Part shown: in pieces, positions 15,710-36,376 of the stretch
Position numbering within the stretch: position 1 is the stretch's first letter
How the letters are laid out: every line of letters begins with the position of its first letter
Origin: Solirubrobacteraceae bacterium
Lineage (GTDB): Bacteria > Actinomycetota > Thermoleophilia > Solirubrobacterales > Solirubrobacteraceae
Length of the DNA: 36,376 nucleotides
Assembly (NCBI GenBank): GCA_030690545.1
Contig: JAUYGN010000005.1
Span: 1 to 36,376, forward strand
Direction: 5' to 3'
The notes under the pieces: model-generated
The model's input: the letters and a program-made list of their open reading frames with translations, nothing else
Databases searched by the model: none
What the model was told of the DNA's origin: nothing
Made by a program: the position numbers and the translations under genes

Positions 15710-17241
15710 TCAGCGCACGCGCACGAAGACCGGTTTGGAGTTGCCGCTGGCGAATGGGTACAGCGGGCTCGCGACCCGGACGCGGAACGCGTACCGGCGC
15801 CCGCTACCGGAGGACCTGAAGCGGTAGGTCCAGCGGAACGTGCCGCGGCGCGCCGTCCTGACGTCGTCGATCGTGCGCCAGCGACGACCGTCTTGCGCTT
15901 GGATCTTCACCTCGATGCCTTCGCGCGGCAGCAGGCGCAGGCGCCCGGTGAGGGTGATCGGGCGCGCCGGGCGCACCGACCGCGGGGTGACCTGCGCTGA
16001 CACGAGCGCCCGCACGACGGTGCGCAGGCTCGCGCGCGTCGCCGGCGCGTCGTCGCCGCTGAACGCGGTGTAGGCGACGGTGACCGTGCGCGAGGGCCCA
16101 CGTCCGAGCTTGCGCGAGAACGTCCCGTTCGCCGCCGTCTGCACGGTCGCAGCCTGCGTCGTCCGCGCGCCCGCGGCCTGGCGGCGCTGGTGCACGACGA
16201 TCGTCGCGGCGGAGATCGGCCTGCCGGCGGCGTTGACGAGTCTGCCGCGAATCGTCGGCTGCGAGCCGTAGCGCAGCGTCCGGGAGCGCGCGTTCGTCGT
16301 GGCGTGGCGCACGGTCAGCTTGGCGCGCCGGTCGGGGTTGGCGCCGTTCGGTGAGCCCGCGGGCGGACCGTTGGCGATCGTGATCGCGCCGAGCGATCGC
16401 GTGACCGCGTTGTTGGCCGCGTCGCGCACCGTGAGCCGCAGCTCGTGCGGGCCGTCGGGCGCCTTCGTCGTGTCGACCGCCAGCAGCTGACCGGGGCGGC
16501 TGCGTTGGCACGCCGACCAGTCGTCGTGCGCGCAGGGGTAGGCGATCGTCCCGACGACGGTCGAGCCGAGCTCGGCCGTCGCGCTCGCCACGCCGGAGTC
16601 CGCGTCGGCGGCGTCGAACGCGATGTTCTGCGCGCCGGAGACGACGCGCGCACCGGCCAGCGTGCCGCCGGTGACCGTCAGCGCCGGGGGCGCCGACTCG
16701 TCGAGATGGAGCCGATTCTTGTGAACCATGAGCGGAAGCTCGTCGCGAAGTTGCACGCCGAGGACGGACCGGGGGCCGCGCAGTACGTGACCCAGGTCAG
16801 CTCCCTGGACCCGGCCGGCAGCACCGTCTCGTACTCGGGGGCGGCGGGCGAGACGACATTGTGGACTTGACGTCCGGTCGCATCGAAGAGGCTCAGGAAT
16901 GCTTGGCCCTGCGTTGTCGCCGGCGCCGAGTACGACGTCTGGACGCGCCTGATCTCGATGTTCGGGCGGTCGGCTGGGATCGTCAGCTGCATGACCGCGG
17001 ACGTGTTGTGGGCGAGCGCCGCTCCCGGCACCTGCTGGCCGAGCGAGCCCCCGCGGCCGCAGGTGTTCGACGTCACGCCGGTGAGCATTCCGAATGCGCT
17101 CGCACCGGCGTTCGTGTCCCAGTTGCGGCAATGGTCGACGACATACGGATCGGCGGACGCCGCCGACGGGGCGACGGCGAGCAGGCTCGCAGCGCAGGCG
17201 GCAGCGATCACCGTGCGTAGCGACAGGGATTCGGGGATCAT
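15710..17241 (-). pseudogene. Secreted beta-sandwich surface protein, interrupted by one frameshift
   Basis: The first frame starts at ATG 17241 (signal peptide ending near SAASADP, GAGGAG upstream) and runs through CNFATSFRS, then goes out of frame near 16730. The second frame continues as MVHKNRLHLDESAPPALTV to the TGA at 15710. The span of 1532 bases is one short of 511 codons, so a single missing base explains it. The mature part has a Cys-containing jelly-roll-like domain, an Ig-like segment (SATAELGS...VDTTKAPDGPHELRLTVRDAANN), then a C-terminal RGRLVN / TAANGTFSRKL / LTGRLRLLPREG beta domain. It is a full-length paralog of the gene at 34277-35914. Function is unknown, probably at the cell surface. 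The break is real or a one-base sequence error. Confidence 0.75.
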
Positions 17242-29606: not shown

Positions 29607-30384
29607 CCGGGTCGCCGAGACAGACCCGGCCGGGCTCGAGCACCTCGCCGTAGACGCCGAACGCGAGCGGCTCGGTCGTGTCGAGCCCCGCGCGGTAGGA
29701 GCGCAGCAGGTCGAGCGTGGGGAGATCGGCGGCGCCGGTCTCGGGGTGGCGATTGGTCACCAGGCAGCGGCCGACGTGGCCGCGCAGCAGGACGGCCGCG
29801 TCGCCGATCTGCAGCTGCTCGCCGATCCACGCGTCCTCCTCGTGCGGCTCGCCGAGACCGTCGATCTCGACGAGCATGCGAAAGCGGCGCGCGTCGATCG
29901 GACGGCCGCCGGCGACGCGCTCGAGCGCCCGCAGCGACACGCGCGAGAGGATGCTGACGGCGCCCGCGCGGCCGCGGTCGACGGCGCTTCGCTCGATGCC
30001 CTCGACGATCCGCAGCGGCTGCCCGGCGTGCTGCGACAGCGCCGCGCTGAACGCGCCGAGCAGCTCGCGCGCCGGCGTCGGGACGGAGAAGAACGTCGTC
30101 ATCGTCGGCTCGCCGAGCTCGACGACCCCCGCCACCCGCTCGCCGTCGGGGAAGCGCAGCTCGAGCTCGCGGGCGTCGACGCGGTAGCTGGCCACGACCT
30201 CGTTGAGCGCGCCGAGCTGCTTGCCGTTGACCATCCGGTCGCGCGCGTCGACGACGTAGAAGCAGCGGTTGTCGGCGACGCCGCGCGGCGACAGCCCGAT
30301 CGCCTTGCGCGCGACGACGCGCATGCCCTTGACGGGCGTCGTCGCAAGTGCGGTGACGGTGGCGCTCTCGATGCCCGTCAGCAT
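29593..30384 (-). CDS. MOSC domain-containing protein (YcbX/mARC-like)
   Basis: A 263-aa protein. The N-terminal MOSC_N beta barrel is seen in VTALATTPVKGMRVVARKAI, with the invariant PVKG, and DNRCFYVVDARDRMVNGKQ. The MOSC domain has SRVSLRALERVAG, ARRFRMLVEIDG and the conserved Cys in GHVGRCLVTNRHPETG, which binds the molybdenum of a sulfurated or cysteine-ligated cofactor. Proteins of this type reduce N-hydroxylated compounds or transfer sulfur. No electron-transfer partner domain is fused or adjacent. ATG 30384 gives a full N-terminal barrel. Confidence 0.85.
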   Translation of the reverse strand: MLTGIESATVTALATTPVKGMRVVARKAIGLSPRGVADNRCFYVVDARDRMVNGKQLGALNEVVASYRVDARELELRFPDGERVAGVVELGEPTMTTFFSVPTPARELLGAFSAALSQHAGQPLRIVEGIERSAVDRGRAGAVSILSRVSLRALERVAGGRPIDARRFRMLVEIDGLGEPHEEDAWIGEQLQIGDAAVLLRGHVGRCLVTNRHPETGAADLPTLDLLRSYRAGLDTTEPLAFGVYGEVLEPGRVCLGDPVTRR

Positions 30385-30453
30385 GCCAGGCGCAGAGCGC
30401 CTGCACGCCAACCGGTGACCTTCGCGCGCGCTTGCGTCATCCTGTCGTGCCCC

Positions 30454-32772
30454 ATGGGCCGCGCGGCTGCGACGACGATCGGACGTGGCTTCCTGCTGGG
30501 GGTCGCGACGCTGCTCGCGCTGGCCGGCGGGCTCCTGGCGACGGCGCCCGGCGCTGCGGCCCGCGTGACGCTCGTCGCGCCCGGGACGGCCGAGCTGCTG
30601 TTCCTCGGCATCCCGGACAACGACGTCGTCGCGCGCCTCGCGCTGCCCGGACCGGCGCGCGCGGTCGCGGTCAGGCGCGACGGGGCGCGCGGCTTCGTCT
30701 CGGCCGGCCGCGAGGTCGTCGGCGTCGACGTCAACCGGCGCCTGGAGACCGGCCGCAGCGCGCTCGGCCCCGGTCCGGAGATCGCCGACCTCGAGCTGTC
30801 GCCCGGCGGCGACACGCTGTACGCGGTCCGCGGAACCCAGCTGCTCGTGCTCGACGCGCAGACGCTCGCGCAGCGCTCGGCGATCGAGCTGCGCGGCACC
30901 GGCGGCGCGCTCGCGGTGTCGCATCCCGGCACGGTCGCCGCGGTCGCGCTGCGCAGCGGGCACGTCGCGGTCGTCGCGCTGGGCTCCAACCGGCTGCTGC
31001 GCCGCGTCGGGCTGAAGGGCGCGGCGGGCGTCGCGGTCAGCGACAAGGGCGTCGTCTATGCGACCGCCGGTGGTCGCCTGCGCGTGATCGGCGCCGGCCA
31101 GCGCAAGGTCCGCAAGCGGGCGATCGGGCTGCCCGCCGGCGCCGGCGGCGGGCTGACGCTGTCGCCCGGTCGCACGCAGCTCGTCGTCGGCGCGGCGATG
31201 GGCGGGCGAGCGGGCGCGCTCGTCGAGCTGGGCGACGCGTCGGTGCAGCGGCTCGTCGCCGGCCGCGGCCCGGGCAAGGGGGCCTGGTACCCGGACGCCA
31301 GCCGGATCCTGTTCGCCGACGGCGGTGCCGCGAGCGTCTCGCTGATCAGCCCCTTCTCGCGTGCGCGGCTGGCGTCCGCCGGGCTGCCCGGCGCGGCGCC
31401 GAGCGACCTCGTCGTGCAGCCGGGCCTGGCACTGATCACCGGCACCGAGGGCCCCGACACGATCACCGGCACGCGCAGCGACGACCAGATCGAGGGGCTC
31501 GGCGGCGACGACACGCTGCGCGGCGGCCGCGGCCGCGACGTGCTCGACGGCGGGCCCGGCAACGACCGGCTGTCCGGCGGCCCCAGCAGCGACAAGGTCT
31601 TCGGCGGCGACGGCAACGACTTCATGACCGGCGGCACCGGCGACGACGAGCTGCGCGGCGGGCCCGGCGACGACGGCGCCGACGGCGGCACCGGCAACGA
31701 CACGATCTACGGCGACGACGGCAACGACACGCTCGACGGCGGCGACGGCGACGACACGATCTACGGCGGCGAGGGCGACGACGTCATCATCGAGAAGGGC
31801 TTCGGCGACGACAAGCTGCTCGACGGCGGCCCCGGCAACGATCTCATCAAGGGCGGCCGCGGCTCCGACCAGCTGATCCTCGGCGGCGACGGCGACGACC
31901 GGCTCTACGGCGAGACCGGCTCGGAGCGGATCCGCGGCGGCGACGGCGACGACTTCATCGACGGCGGCCGCGCCGGAGATCGTCTGGAGGGCGAGAACGG
32001 CGACGACACGATCCTCGGCGATGCCGGCAACGATCACCTCTACGGCGGCCACGGCGACGACACGCTCGACGGCGGCTCGGGCAACGACAACCTGTTCGGT
32101 CACGAGGGCAACGACGTGCTGATCGGCGGCAACGGCGCCGACACGCTCGACGGCGGGCCGGGCGACGACATCATCCGCGCGGCCGACGACAGCGCCGACA
32201 CGGTCTTCTGCGGCGATGGCCACGACATCGTCTACGTCGAGGAGGACGCCCCCACGCGCGACGCCCTGCACGACTGCGAGACGGTCATCCCGATCCCGGC
32301 GGAGCCCGACAACGACACGACGACGGCGCTGACCATTCGCGGCACCCGCCACGCCGACGTGCTGCGCGGAACGCCGGGCGACGACTCGATCTTCGGCCGC
32401 GGCGGCAACGACCGGATCTACGGCCTGGAGGGCGACGACTACGTCGACGGCGACCAGGGCAACGATCGCCTGCACGGCGGGCCGGGCGACGACGTGATCG
32501 CCGGCCGGCAGGGCGACGACACGATCTGGGGCGGCCCCGGCAACGACCGCATCACCGGCGACCGCGGCCGCGACCGCATCTTCGGCGGCGCGGGCAACGA
32601 CACGATCTTCGGCAACCTCGACCCCGACTTCGTCGACGGCGGCCCCGGCAACGACCGCATCAACGTCGTGCACGGCGGGGTCGACCGCGTCGTCTGCGGT
32701 CCCGGCAGGGACGTCGTCTTCGCCGATCCGGAGGACCGCGTCAGCCGGGACTGCGAGGTCATCCGTCGCTAG
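30454..32772 (+). CDS. Secreted RTX-repeat protein with N-terminal beta-propeller-like domain
   Basis: A 772-aa protein. Signal peptide (about 1-35, hydrophobic core then APGAAA). Residues about 40-325 show repeating short strands (ELSPGGDTLYAV, VAVSDKGVVYATAGGRLRVI, LTLSPGRTQLVVGA) like a YVTN/WD-type propeller. From about 329 to the end are Ca2+-binding RTX nonapeptides (G-G-x-G-x-D-x-Φ-x) in two blocks, each closed by a similar two-Cys segment. In calcium the repeats fold into a parallel beta-roll. Export appears to be through Sec, not type I as in Gram-negative RTX proteins, since a signal peptide is present and no HlyB/D genes lie nearby. The role is unknown, probably adhesion or extracellular matrix. 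Confidence 0.85.
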   Translation: MGRAAATTIGRGFLLGVATLLALAGGLLATAPGAAARVTLVAPGTAELLFLGIPDNDVVARLALPGPARAVAVRRDGARGFVSAGREVVGVDVNRRLETGRSALGPGPEIADLELSPGGDTLYAVRGTQLLVLDAQTLAQRSAIELRGTGGALAVSHPGTVAAVALRSGHVAVVALGSNRLLRRVGLKGAAGVAVSDKGVVYATAGGRLRVIGAGQRKVRKRAIGLPAGAGGGLTLSPGRTQLVVGAAMGGRAGALVELGDASVQRLVAGRGPGKGAWYPDASRILFADGGAASVSLISPFSRARLASAGLPGAAPSDLVVQPGLALITGTEGPDTITGTRSDDQIEGLGGDDTLRGGRGRDVLDGGPGNDRLSGGPSSDKVFGGDGNDFMTGGTGDDELRGGPGDDGADGGTGNDTIYGDDGNDTLDGGDGDDTIYGGEGDDVIIEKGFGDDKLLDGGPGNDLIKGGRGSDQLILGGDGDDRLYGETGSERIRGGDGDDFIDGGRAGDRLEGENGDDTILGDAGNDHLYGGHGDDTLDGGSGNDNLFGHEGNDVLIGGNGADTLDGGPGDDIIRAADDSADTVFCGDGHDIVYVEEDAPTRDALHDCETVIPIPAEPDNDTTTALTIRGTRHADVLRGTPGDDSIFGRGGNDRIYGLEGDDYVDGDQGNDRLHGGPGDDVIAGRQGDDTIWGGPGNDRITGDRGRDRIFGGAGNDTIFGNLDPDFVDGGPGNDRINVVHGGVDRVVCGPGRDVVFADPEDRVSRDCEVIRR
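31438..32286 (+). repeat. RTX repeat block 1 with Cys cap
   Basis: About two dozen degenerate 27-base units (G-G-x-G-x-D-x-Φ-x) inside the RTX gene, ending in a cap with VFCGDGHDIVYVEED then HDCETV. The repeat is at the protein-coding level, so the DNA repetition follows from codon bias. Confidence 0.8.
32335..32760 (+). repeat. RTX repeat block 2 with Cys cap
   Basis: About ten RTX units after a short linker, opening with RGTRHADVLRGTPGDD and ending in a cap with RVVCGPGRDVVFADPEDRV then RDCEVI. It parallels the end of block 1, so the two blocks look like a duplication of a whole roll. Confidence 0.75.
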
Positions 32773-32999: not shown

Positions 33000-34280
33000 A
33001 TGGCAGCCACGGCTTCCAGCGCGTTGGAGCAGATCGCGGGCCGCGAGGCGCAGCTTGCCCGCGCGCTGCACGCGCAGTTTCGCCGGCGACTGACCGCCGA
33101 CGACACGCGCGACGCGGTCGCCGACGCGATTGCGACGGCGCACATGGCGCGTGACGAGCTCGGGGAGCTCGACGTCGATCGCCTCGAGGCGTGGGTGCGC
33201 ACGCGCGCCTACCGCAACGCGATCGATCAGATCCGCGCGATCGACGGCTATGGAGCGCAGCGGCGCAAGGCGAGCGTGAGCGTCGACGACTATGCCGAGA
33301 CGCTGGCCGACGACGACGGTGACGTGCTCGCGGGGCTCGACGACGAGCTCGCCGAACGGCTGACCGACGGCACCGCCGCGCAGAGCGTCGCACTGGCGCT
33401 CGACCGGCTGACGCCCGACGAGCGCCGCCTGCTGCGTCTGCGCCACTACGACGGCCTCGACGTCAAGACGATTGCCGCCCTGCTGGACATCCACCCCAAG
33501 AAGTACGAGCGCCTGCACACCCGCGCGATCGGCAAGCTGCGCACGATCTTCATCGAGACGACGGCCGGCGAGCACTGCGAGCCGGTGCGCGCGCTGATCT
33601 CGCGGTCGCGCCAGGTGTCGCTGACGCCGGCGCTGTCGGCCGAGGTCGCCGCGCACGTCGAGGCGTGCGCGCAGTGCCATGCGTTCGAGAAGCGCAGCCT
33701 GCGGCTGATCGCCGCGCTGCCGCTGCCGGCGCCCGCGCTCGCCGACCGTCTCTGGACGCGCATGCAGGATGTCCTGCCGGGCCTGGGCAGCCACGGCGAC
33801 GCGGTGGCGGCCGGCGCGACGGGAACGGTGGCCGCGGCGGGCGGCGCGGGCGGCGCGGCGTCGACCGGCATCCTGGCCGGCGCCGGCGCCAAGACGCTGG
33901 CCGCGATCTGCGGCGGCGCCGTGACGGCGACCTGCGTCGGCGCGATCGCGGTTCCGGTCGTCAAGAACGCTCGCGACAAGCCCGAGCGGTCGACCACCGA
34001 GACGGTTCCGGGGCCGTCGCGCAACGCGGCGCGCCAGCCGGTCGTCGTGCCGGCAGGGACCGACCGCTCGGGCTCGCGTGCGACGCGCCCTGCGTCGCCG
34101 GCGGCCGGCAGCAAGCCCGCCGCGAAGCCGCGCGCGGCGGGCTCGCAGGTCACCGGCTCGCTGAGTCTCGAGGACTTCGGCACCCCGACCGGCGGTGCGT
34201 CCTCCGCCTCGAGCCCCGCACCGCCGCCTCCGCCGCCACCGCCTCCGTCCAGCACCTTCAGCCAGGAGTTCACGCCATGA
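33000..34280 (+). CDS. ECF-type sigma factor fused to zinc finger, membrane helix and Pro-rich tail
   Basis: A 426-aa protein. Residues about 15-85 look like sigma region 2 (RRRLTADDTRDAVADAIATA, then AWVRTRAYRNAIDQIRA). Residues about 128-185 are region 4 (LDRLTPDERRLLRLRHYDGLDVKTIAALLDI, then YERLHTRAIGKLRTIF). Next is an anti-sigma-like zinc site: Cys193, then H-x3-C-x2-C at His219, Cys223 and Cys226. One membrane helix lies at about 300-321. The outer tail of about 105 residues is Pro/Ser/Arg-rich with a ten-Pro run near the end. I infer a membrane-tethered sigma factor carrying its own regulatory domain. Its TGA overlaps the next ATG. The ATG at 33000 has no clear Shine-Dalgarno sequence. 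Confidence 0.8.
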   Translation: MAATASSALEQIAGREAQLARALHAQFRRRLTADDTRDAVADAIATAHMARDELGELDVDRLEAWVRTRAYRNAIDQIRAIDGYGAQRRKASVSVDDYAETLADDDGDVLAGLDDELAERLTDGTAAQSVALALDRLTPDERRLLRLRHYDGLDVKTIAALLDIHPKKYERLHTRAIGKLRTIFIETTAGEHCEPVRALISRSRQVSLTPALSAEVAAHVEACAQCHAFEKRSLRLIAALPLPAPALADRLWTRMQDVLPGLGSHGDAVAAGATGTVAAAGGAGGAASTGILAGAGAKTLAAICGGAVTATCVGAIAVPVVKNARDKPERSTTETVPGPSRNAARQPVVVPAGTDRSGSRATRPASPAAGSKPAAKPRAAGSQVTGSLSLEDFGTPTGGASSASSPAPPPPPPPPPSSTFSQEFTP

Positions 34281-35914
34281 CCGTGCCGCCATCCGTTCGT
34301 CTCACGATCGTCGCGGCCCTGTTCGGGCTCTGCGCGACGGCGCTGCTCCCCGCCGTCGCGCACGCCGGCGCCTACAAGATGTACTCGTGCGAGCCGCCCG
34401 GCGTGAACATCGCCAGCCCGACCGCGGGTCCATGGCGTCCCTACTCGGAGGGCAATCCCAGCACGCAGGCGGTCAGCACCTGTGGCGCGGCGCCGGGCGG
34501 CGCGATGACCATCAGCTTCAACGGCCACCCGGGCAACTACCCGCTGGAATCGTTCGCAAAGGTCGGCTGGGAGCTTCCGGCGACGGCGCTCAACGCGCAG
34601 ATCGCGATCGTGCGGGTCAAGAGCTGGGTCGTCGCCGATACGCGCAGCCTCGCGTATCCGCCCGGTGACCTGCGCTTCCAGGTCGGCTATCCGGACAACC
34701 TCGGCCCGATGGCGGGCAACAGCGTCGGCGACACCCGCGCGGGCGGATACGCGAGCCCGACGAACGATCCGGCCGCACCGCTTCACCGGCTCGGCCTGAC
34801 CTGCGCCAACGGCGGCGCCGGTGAGCCGTGCAGGCTGCTCTACAGGCCGAACCTCGTCATCTACGGCACGGAGGCCGACCTCGTGGAGTCCGCTCCGCCG
34901 GTCGGAGCGATCGCCGGCGGAACCCTGTCGAGCGCCGGCGCGAAGGCGGGCGCCGCAGTGCTGTCGTACACGGCGGCCGACGGGCAGTCGGGCGTCGAGC
35001 GCGTCGAGGTGCTGCTCGACGACACGGTTGCCGGCGTGCAGGACTTCTCGCGCAACCTCGCGCTGCCGCTTGCCGCGCAGGGCGCCGGCGACTGCACGTA
35101 CACCGGCCTCGCGGCCTGCCCGCCGAGCCGCGGCGGCGACATCGCGGTCGACACGACGAAGGTCGCAGACGGCGTCCGCTCGGTGACGTTGCGCGTGACG
35201 GACGCCGCGGGCAACCGGGCGAACGTCGCGGGCCCGCAGATCAACGTCGTCAACAGCGGCGTCCAGGGCGCTCCGAACGGTACGCCCGCATCGCGGCTGG
35301 CGAAGCTCACGGCGCGCTTCGCTGCCACGACGCAGCGCTCGCGGCGACTGGCCTACACGGCACGACCGCTGATCCGCGGTCGCCTCGTCAACGAGCAGGG
35401 CAAGGCGATTGCCCGTGCGACCGTCGCGGTGCTCGCGCGACCGCGCCGCGCCGGGGCGCGCGACCGGCAGGTCGCCACCGTCCGGACCGCCGCCAACGGC
35501 GCGTTCACGTACCGCCTCGCACGCGGTCCGTCACGGCGCCTGACGTTCGCCTACGACGCCTACGTCGGCGATCGGCGTCCCGCGTCGAGGAGCATCCTCA
35601 ACACGCATGTCCGCGCGCTCGTGTCGGCCTCGGCGACCCCGCGGTCCACGCGCGCCGGGCGCCAGATCACGCTCGGCGGCCGCCTGCGCCTGCTGCCGCG
35701 CGAGGGGGTCCGGATCGAGATCCAGGCCCGCGACGGACGCAACTGGCGCACGATCGGCTCGGTCCGGACCAAGCGCCGCGGCGCGTTCTCGTGGCGCTAC
35801 CGCTTCAGCACCGCGGCAAGGGGTCGCACGTACGCCTTCCGTGCCCGCGTCGTCAGCGAGATCTATCCGTTCGCTGCCGGCAACAGCCGCCCAGTGCGCG
35901 TCAGCGTCCGCTGA
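34277..35914 (+). CDS. Secreted beta-sandwich surface protein, intact paralog
   Basis: A 545-aa protein. Signal peptide (about 1-31, cleavage near AVAHAGA). The N-terminal Cys-containing domain (YKMYSCEPPG...VSTCGAAPGG) resembles a jelly roll. The middle is an Ig-like segment (GQSGVERVEVLLDD...VDTTKVADGVRSVTLRVTDAAGN). The C-terminus has a carboxypeptidase-regulatory-like domain (LIRGRLVNEQGKAIARATV, TAANGAFTYRL) and a last beta domain (LGGRLRLLPREGVRIEIQ...FAAGNSRPVRV). It matches the frameshifted protein at 15710-17241 along most of its length. It is translationally coupled to the sigma factor by ATGA (34277-34280), so it may be that sigma factor's partner or target. The function is unknown. 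Confidence 0.8.
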   Translation: MTVPPSVRLTIVAALFGLCATALLPAVAHAGAYKMYSCEPPGVNIASPTAGPWRPYSEGNPSTQAVSTCGAAPGGAMTISFNGHPGNYPLESFAKVGWELPATALNAQIAIVRVKSWVVADTRSLAYPPGDLRFQVGYPDNLGPMAGNSVGDTRAGGYASPTNDPAAPLHRLGLTCANGGAGEPCRLLYRPNLVIYGTEADLVESAPPVGAIAGGTLSSAGAKAGAAVLSYTAADGQSGVERVEVLLDDTVAGVQDFSRNLALPLAAQGAGDCTYTGLAACPPSRGGDIAVDTTKVADGVRSVTLRVTDAAGNRANVAGPQINVVNSGVQGAPNGTPASRLAKLTARFAATTQRSRRLAYTARPLIRGRLVNEQGKAIARATVAVLARPRRAGARDRQVATVRTAANGAFTYRLARGPSRRLTFAYDAYVGDRRPASRSILNTHVRALVSASATPRSTRAGRQITLGGRLRLLPREGVRIEIQARDGRNWRTIGSVRTKRRGAFSWRYRFSTAARGRTYAFRARVVSEIYPFAAGNSRPVRVSVR

Positions 35915-35967: not shown

Positions 35968-36376
35968 ATGAGCGTCTACGAGCAGCGCCGCTCCCCCTTC
36001 GACGACGACCTCCTCAGGCGCGCCGCGCACGAGCCGCACGCGCTCGAGCAGCCGGTGCCGGATGCGCCGAGCACGCCGCCGGGGTGCGCTGCGAGCACGA
36101 GCGGGCGCCGCTCGCGCCCCGGCCTGACCGGGGCGCGGCCGCGCTCCAGCCGCAGAGTTCCCGGCGTGCTGGTGCTCGTCGCCGCGGGCGCGGTCCTCAG
36201 CATCGGCGCGAGCGGGGCGCTGGATCGCTCCGAGCCGATCGAGCCGGTCCTCGGCTTCAGCGCGACCTCGTCGCTCGTCAAGGCCGACCCGCCGCCGAAG
36301 CGCCCGGCGACGTCCGCATCGCGCGAACGATCCACGCGACGCGCGTCGCGGCCGGCCGCGACGCGTCGCGCCGTCC
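35968..36376 (+). CDS. Partial CDS: single-pass membrane protein, runs off the window
   Basis: ATG 35968 opens a frame that is still open at base 36376 (136 codons). The first 65 residues are charged and Pro-rich (MSVYEQRRSPFDDDLLRRAA). A hydrophobic helix follows (about 69-90, PGVLVLVAAGAVLSIGASGA), then an Arg/Ser/Pro-rich extracytoplasmic part. The design resembles an N-in membrane protein with an exported domain beyond the window. I recognise no family. It lies 53 bases downstream of the secreted beta-sandwich gene and may belong to the same surface module. Confidence 0.6.
   Translation, partial: MSVYEQRRSPFDDDLLRRAAHEPHALEQPVPDAPSTPPGCAASTSGRRSRPGLTGARPRSSRRVPGVLVLVAAGAVLSIGASGALDRSEPIEPVLGFSATSSLVKADPPPKRPATSASRERSTRRASRPAATRRAV

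Follow-up and report, generated by a model that had tools for sequence, protein, structure and literature searches.

A single 426-residue chain encoded on a contig of Solirubrobacteraceae bacterium joins an ECF sigma factor, a zinc-finger anti-sigma (ZAS) domain, a membrane helix and a Pro-rich tail, and this tail ends in a short conserved peptide that is associated, among relatives, with an adjacent gene for an exported Ig-like protein. The window, i.e. the whole stretch of DNA that was analysed (36,376 bases), is one entire contig (C71) of a 3.5 Mb genome in 149 contigs. The sigma–ZAS–membrane fusion itself is not new and has precedents in ECF48, ECF52 and ECF53. What appears to be new, as a variant of this known architecture, is the conserved tail peptide in combination with an associated exported protein; no description of this combination was found in the literature, the search covering open-access text. 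For the one-chain membrane sigma factors of ECF48, ECF52 and ECF53, published work proposes proteolysis and shows no outer trigger as the signal input. Here the outer part would consist of a peptide of a few residues and a separate exported candidate, so that a synthetic peptide and a single purified protein would suffice to probe the input step. In uncultured Solirubrobacterales, the motif also provides a simple search handle for switches of this kind and the proteins paired with them.

Domain structure of the sigma–ZAS chain

The two genes and their features are as follows.

33000–34280 (+): ECF sigma factor with ZAS anti-sigma domain, membrane helix and Pro-rich tail, 426 residues, from profiles, alignment and hydropathy
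33051–33545 (+): sigma regions 2 and 4, residues 18–182
33573–33692 (+): ZAS-like zinc site, residues 192–231
33897–33953 (+): predicted membrane helix, residues 300–318
34158–34196 (+): possible degenerate mid-tail copy of the motif (SLSLEDFGTPTGG)
34254–34277 (+): C-terminal tail motif TFSQEFTP, residues 419–426
34277–34280 (+): ATGA overlap, with the ATG of the partner at 34277 and the TGA stop of the sigma gene at 34278–34280
34277–35914 (+): exported partner, 545 residues, with a signal sequence, an N-terminal beta-sandwich, three Ig-like domains and six conserved cysteines

The assignment of sigma regions 2 and 4 in the initial annotation agrees with the profile matches. Residues 18–182 match the ECF superfamily model TIGR02937 (54.8 bits, cut-off 42.9) and Pfam region 4 scores 35.3 bits (cut-off 25.7); since Pfam region 2 alone falls under its cut-off (10.7 bits against 24), the region 2 call rests on TIGR02937. 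With both regions matching the superfamily model, the protein is an ECF sigma factor. The zinc site H-x3-C-x2-C noted earlier was found again as H219, C223 and C226, preceded by C193, and all four ligands are invariant across nine aligned relatives; this C...H-x3-C-x2-C arrangement after the sigma domain is that of a ZAS domain, and the NCBIfam anti-sigma model NF052368 matches residues 192–231 weakly (E = 0.003, under its cut-off). One membrane helix had been placed around residues 300–321, in agreement with the best 19-residue stretch (300–318, mean Kyte–Doolittle hydropathy 2.03), and the stop codon of the sigma gene does overlap the start of the partner. The presence of sigma factor, ZAS site, membrane helix and Pro-rich tail in one chain is confirmed. 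The tail following the helix is rich in Pro, Ala and Ser and is presumably extracytoplasmic. Many motif-tailed sigmas have in common the helix pattern RPGxVAAxxxGCxxxG...YC, with two cysteines, one of them mid-helix (L073, L074, L120–L122, L124, L143, L148, L153 and L161).

The same plan of sigma factor, zinc finger, membrane helix and Pro-rich outer tail in one chain is found in actinobacterial ECF52 (SCO4117 of Streptomyces coelicolor), for which proteolytic release has been proposed and whose tail terminates in a fused carbohydrate-binding module (PMC5826349, PMC8999054). The window protein has no such end domain, because its tail stops shortly past the Pro run and no domain was matched there; unlike ECF52, it terminates with a short motif, and the Ig-like exported protein is a separate product encoded alongside. 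The fused sandwich at the end of the ECF52 tail may be regarded as the fused analogue of this two-gene arrangement. ECF48 and ECF53, also from Actinobacteria, possess a C-terminal ZAS domain, one or two helices and extensions of up to 400 residues (PMC8999054). By description they resemble the window protein in ZAS domain, helix and extension, and differ from it in that the published descriptions mention neither a conserved peptide in the tail nor an exported partner protein. For ECF48, ECF52 and ECF53 the published model is activation by proteolysis, and activation through cleavage by Prc and RseP has been shown for IutY (ECF243) of Pseudomonas putida (PMC8999054); IutY, like the window protein, is a sigma factor fused to a membrane-bound anti-sigma factor but is not described as a ZAS fusion in that paper. 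In SigI/RsgI of Clostridium thermocellum, a membrane anti-sigma factor has an outer sensing part, with release by RseP cleavage within its helix (PMC12203970). The likeness to the proposed switch lies in the outer sensing part and in release by cleavage; SigI and RsgI are separate proteins, whereas the window encodes one chain.

Conservation of the tail motif

The initial annotation overlooked the most informative feature of the chain, a conserved motif that forms the very end of the tail. In the nine-protein alignment the invariant columns are A74, L137, the four zinc ligands, P243 and E423–F424; the last pair adjoins the C-terminus, and the remaining tail is unalignable. As the nine sigmas had been chosen partly by their C-terminal ending, the motif was tested on a wider set. 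A class-wide profile search of 299 genomes, from which about 100 regions were fetched, yielded 87 complete sigma–ZAS tails. The motif, defined as [E/Q]F plus 1–6 residues at the tail end (EFTP in the window; EFGP, EFGIE, EFDLR and QFGGP are other examples), ends 57 of these, compared with an average of 1.2 and a maximum of 5 among shuffled tails. The original search profile took in the tail; with a control model rebuilt without it, motif-bearing proteins still ranked highest and generic proteins lowest. Mid-tail copies such as EFGIE or EFGPE occur in 27 of 53 motif-bearing tails against 2.4 in shuffles. The codons of the motif vary (GAG/GAA or CAG/CAA for Glu/Gln, TTC/TTT for Phe).

When 396 genomes of the phylum were searched, no match reaching the end of the model was obtained outside the order. 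DNA patterns encoding EFGxE were sought in the genome of the window and in genome G035, and the disordered-tail occurrences were limited to two sigma genes of G035; the other matches lie within apparently folded proteins. Two loci of one genus (L204 and L217) have, upstream of the exported protein, a tailed protein whose last residues are ELGC or QLGC, which may represent a motif variant with a C-terminal cysteine.

Association of the motif with the exported protein

The named search retrieved relatives that are metagenome assemblies of Solirubrobacterales and other Actinomycetota. Among the complete tails, 35 have both the motif and an adjacent partner, 21 the motif only, two a partner only (tails ending QEAFLP and PEVGGLAP) and 28 neither. 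A partner is therefore adjacent to 35 of 56 motif tails but to 2 of 30 motif-less ones (Fisher p = 2.4e-7, an optimistic value because the loci are related). The count is rough in both directions, since some adjacent but divergent partners were scored as absent (L158, L179, L189).

Searching from the partner side, in the named genomes, gave ten loci, of which four belong to an assembly sampled before and nine include upstream DNA. In all nine, the last residues of the preceding tail are PQFGGP or TQFGGP, and the stretch before the motif is variable. Further loci found in this way are preceded by a motif-tailed sigma gene (L203, AEFGF; L213, VEFGP) or by a sigma-like gene with a different ending (L214, L216), and in L084, L086 and L202 the partner follows a small single-helix motif-tailed protein that has no sigma domain. 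The partner lies upstream of the sigma gene in L118, L123, L126–L128, L130 and L134 and downstream in most others; because both orders occur, the association is not merely one inherited junction. Sigma and partner genes often share overlapping codons, and the identical ATGA overlap with an exported-protein homologue recurs in L010 and L038, whose sigma proteins are distant full-length homologues. In L071 (7340–7903, −) and L072 (7709–8272, −), from one genus, a 187-residue protein stands between the exported partner and the sigma gene, and its codons overlap both flanking genes.

The initial annotation had asked for the same pair in related genomes, and the outcome was divided: the pairing is kept in relatives from several families of the order but poorly in the closest ones. 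A first search found no close orthologue, even inside the genus, and distant full-length homologues outside it. Among six genomes of the same genus, G004 (L163) and G006 (L076) alone yielded a sigma factor with the motif tail, and the partner-like gene of G006 is convergent and not coupled. The named-genome search with the sigma protein as query returned no match.

The exported partner

The partner had been described as an exported protein of carboxypeptidase-regulatory/Ig type. Its N-terminus is hydrophobic and the Ig-type half of the description agrees with the predicted structure; the Pfam models behind such names stay below their cut-offs (CarboxypepD_reg, 23.5 bits against 32.3; Big_13, 15.2 against 27). 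The AlphaFold2 model, built with 36 aligned sequences (mean pLDDT 84.7), contains an N-terminal sandwich of lower certainty at about residues 29–205 and three Ig-like domains at 205–545. VIA-align superposes residues 205–545 on solved tandem Ig chains with Z of about 10–11, for example 5gni_B (Z 11.0, rmsd 5.2, 184 residues aligned). The predicted fold is thus of the tandem Ig-like class, a match that gives fold class and does not imply function. Foldseek and VIA-align returned generic tandem Ig chains only, and the barely tested N-terminal sandwich gave no identification. Cysteines 38, 69, 176, 185, 273 and 281 are invariant or almost so, which fits a location outside the cytoplasm.

Proposed mechanism and alternative explanations

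The initial annotation had suggested a self-regulated sigma factor held at the membrane, perhaps released by proteolysis or by a signal acting on the tail, with the surface protein as sensor partner or product. This interpretation is partly supported and can be made more specific: with middling confidence, we propose that the tail peptide docks an exported protein, probably the neighbouring one, and that release of the sigma domain by proteolysis is gated by this docking or by a signal at the surface. The ZAS domain would keep the sigma domain inactive at the membrane, inside the cell, and the flexible outer tail would offer one or two copies of the [E/Q]F + 1–6 peptide as docking site. The exported protein encoded by the next gene, with its beta-sandwich and Ig-like domains, is the most likely docking partner; it would bind the tail and, by itself touching a ligand at the surface, the wall or a neighbouring cell, would leave the tail shielded from or exposed to a site-1 protease. 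Regulated intramembrane proteolysis could then release the sigma–ZAS part, with the ZAS portion removed in the cytoplasm. Self-regulation by a fused ZAS domain and release by proteolysis are proposed by analogy with the published ECF52 and IutY models. The likely target of the sigma factor would be its own operon; operons in relatives often contain more exported proteins as well as membrane proteins with the motif tail, and in some cases also encode a conjugation-type secretion system. A locus of a relative (L070, 6976–8196, +) contains, within a motif-tailed sigma operon and between two exported sandwich proteins, a protein whose sequence reads like that of a secreted protease of the subtilisin type and which would be a candidate for the site-1 role.

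More tentatively, the [E/Q]F tail peptide on sigma switches and on small single-helix proteins might form an order-wide surface code of short linear motifs, read by the exported Ig-like family, which would wire surface or contact sensing, partly for conjugation-type secretion, to transcription.

Several observations weigh against the docking proposal. Many partner homologues, the closest included (L077–L082), stand alone, so the exported family is broader than the sigma module, and the 21 motif-bearing sigmas counted above have no recognised adjacent partner. No fusion of sigma factor and partner was found. The positive-inside rule favours neither orientation of the tail (21 versus 23 of 53 proteins). 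AlphaFold2 applied to a read-through of the L074 tail and partner, with the stop read as Ser, gave no docking and a disordered tail (residues 1–96 almost all with pLDDT <50), which is weak evidence because the peptide was not free-ended and few tails were in the alignment.

The same absence of predicted docking and the same 21 sigmas would suit an explanation in which the motif serves a protease or another common envelope factor as a signal for recognition or processing, and the exported protein is a regulon product sharing the operon. Such a signal would also account for motif-tailed small membrane proteins near secretion genes, and it accords with the proteolytic model published for ECF48, ECF52 and ECF53 and demonstrated for IutY. 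It leaves unexplained the rarity of partners beside sigma–ZAS–helix proteins that lack the motif (2/30) and the occurrence of partner genes, in places where there is no sigma gene, after other motif-tailed proteins. We regard this explanation as unlikely.

A third explanation, which we consider improbable, assigns the motif to a conjugation-type (Tcp/Tra) secretion system, with motif proteins docking to or being handled by the apparatus and the sigma factor reporting assembly or cell contact. Conjugation-type secretion genes, namely TcpC (47.8 bits, cut-off 27), TcpE-like, PrgI-like, VirB4/TraG-type or pilin-like genes, were present in the DNA fetched around thirteen sigma loci that carry the motif or a close variant of it (L075, L120, L121, L122, L124, L140, L142, L143, L146, L148, L153, L166 and L169). 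Single-helix motif-tailed proteins with no sigma domain adjoin partner-like or secretion genes; one stands between the sigma and secretion genes in L120 (tail ending EFGFER), L121 (EFTFER), L122 (EFGFER) and L169 (EFGP), and a motif-tailed small protein is likewise placed in L140. Secretion islands of Solirubrobacterales stand beside motif-tailed sigma genes in L120, L121, L122, L124, L140, L142, L166 and L169, and the island at 532000–560000 of contig C1 in G035 has such sigmas at both ends (L121 and L073). In most motif-bearing loci, however, the DNA fetched contains none of these genes. The only TcpC locus in the genome of the window is mid-contig on another contig (C5), the 20 kb read there contained no sigma gene with the motif tail, and no link was found between the end of the window and the secretion genes of the same genome on C5 and C108.

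It is very improbable that the chain is an ordinary ECF52/53-like sigma–ZAS fusion with an irrelevant low-complexity tail and an incidental exported neighbour. Fusions that have neither motif nor partner are common in the genomes examined, and the window's own genome has further sigma–ZAS fusions (L193–L195, two truncated by contig ends); this explanation is nevertheless largely refuted by the excess of the motif over shuffles and by its association with the partner.

Finally, the AGGAG that lies 8 bases 5′ of the partner ATG in the window encodes the Q-E of the motif (…CAG GAG TTC … CC ATG A), but the idea that the motif is in general a by-product of this ribosome-binding site was rejected and has a negligible probability, since the motif is equally conserved where the stop codon coincides with no gene start (L071, L072, L120, L121), is kept where the partner is upstream or absent (L118, L123, L126–L128, L130, L134, L073, L135–L139), has copies in the middle of about half of the tails and persists as QFGGP where the purine run has shifted. 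In overlapping cases, in some of which the Glu codon belongs to it, the ribosome-binding site may add selection on the motif.

Neighbouring genes

35968–36376 (+): third gene, a single-helix protein with an Arg/Pro-rich tail, truncated by the contig end

In position and anatomy the product of this third gene resembles the third proteins of L120 and L121, which have the motif tail; its C-terminus would lie beyond the assembly. Directly 5′ of the sigma gene, the gene at 29776–32772 (+) encodes long runs of GGDGxDTLxGG-type repeats, mainly from about 31100, which read as RTX-like; repeats of this type bind calcium in other proteins. A second copy of the exported protein lies at 15710–17241 (−), with 53% identity across residues 192–544 and no adjoining sigma gene, and looks broken because its N-terminal part is in a different frame (16678–17241). 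Elsewhere, contig C108 of G000 (L222) begins with a VirB4-like fragment followed by WXG100-like and EccC-like genes, which by their sequences suggest type VII secretion.
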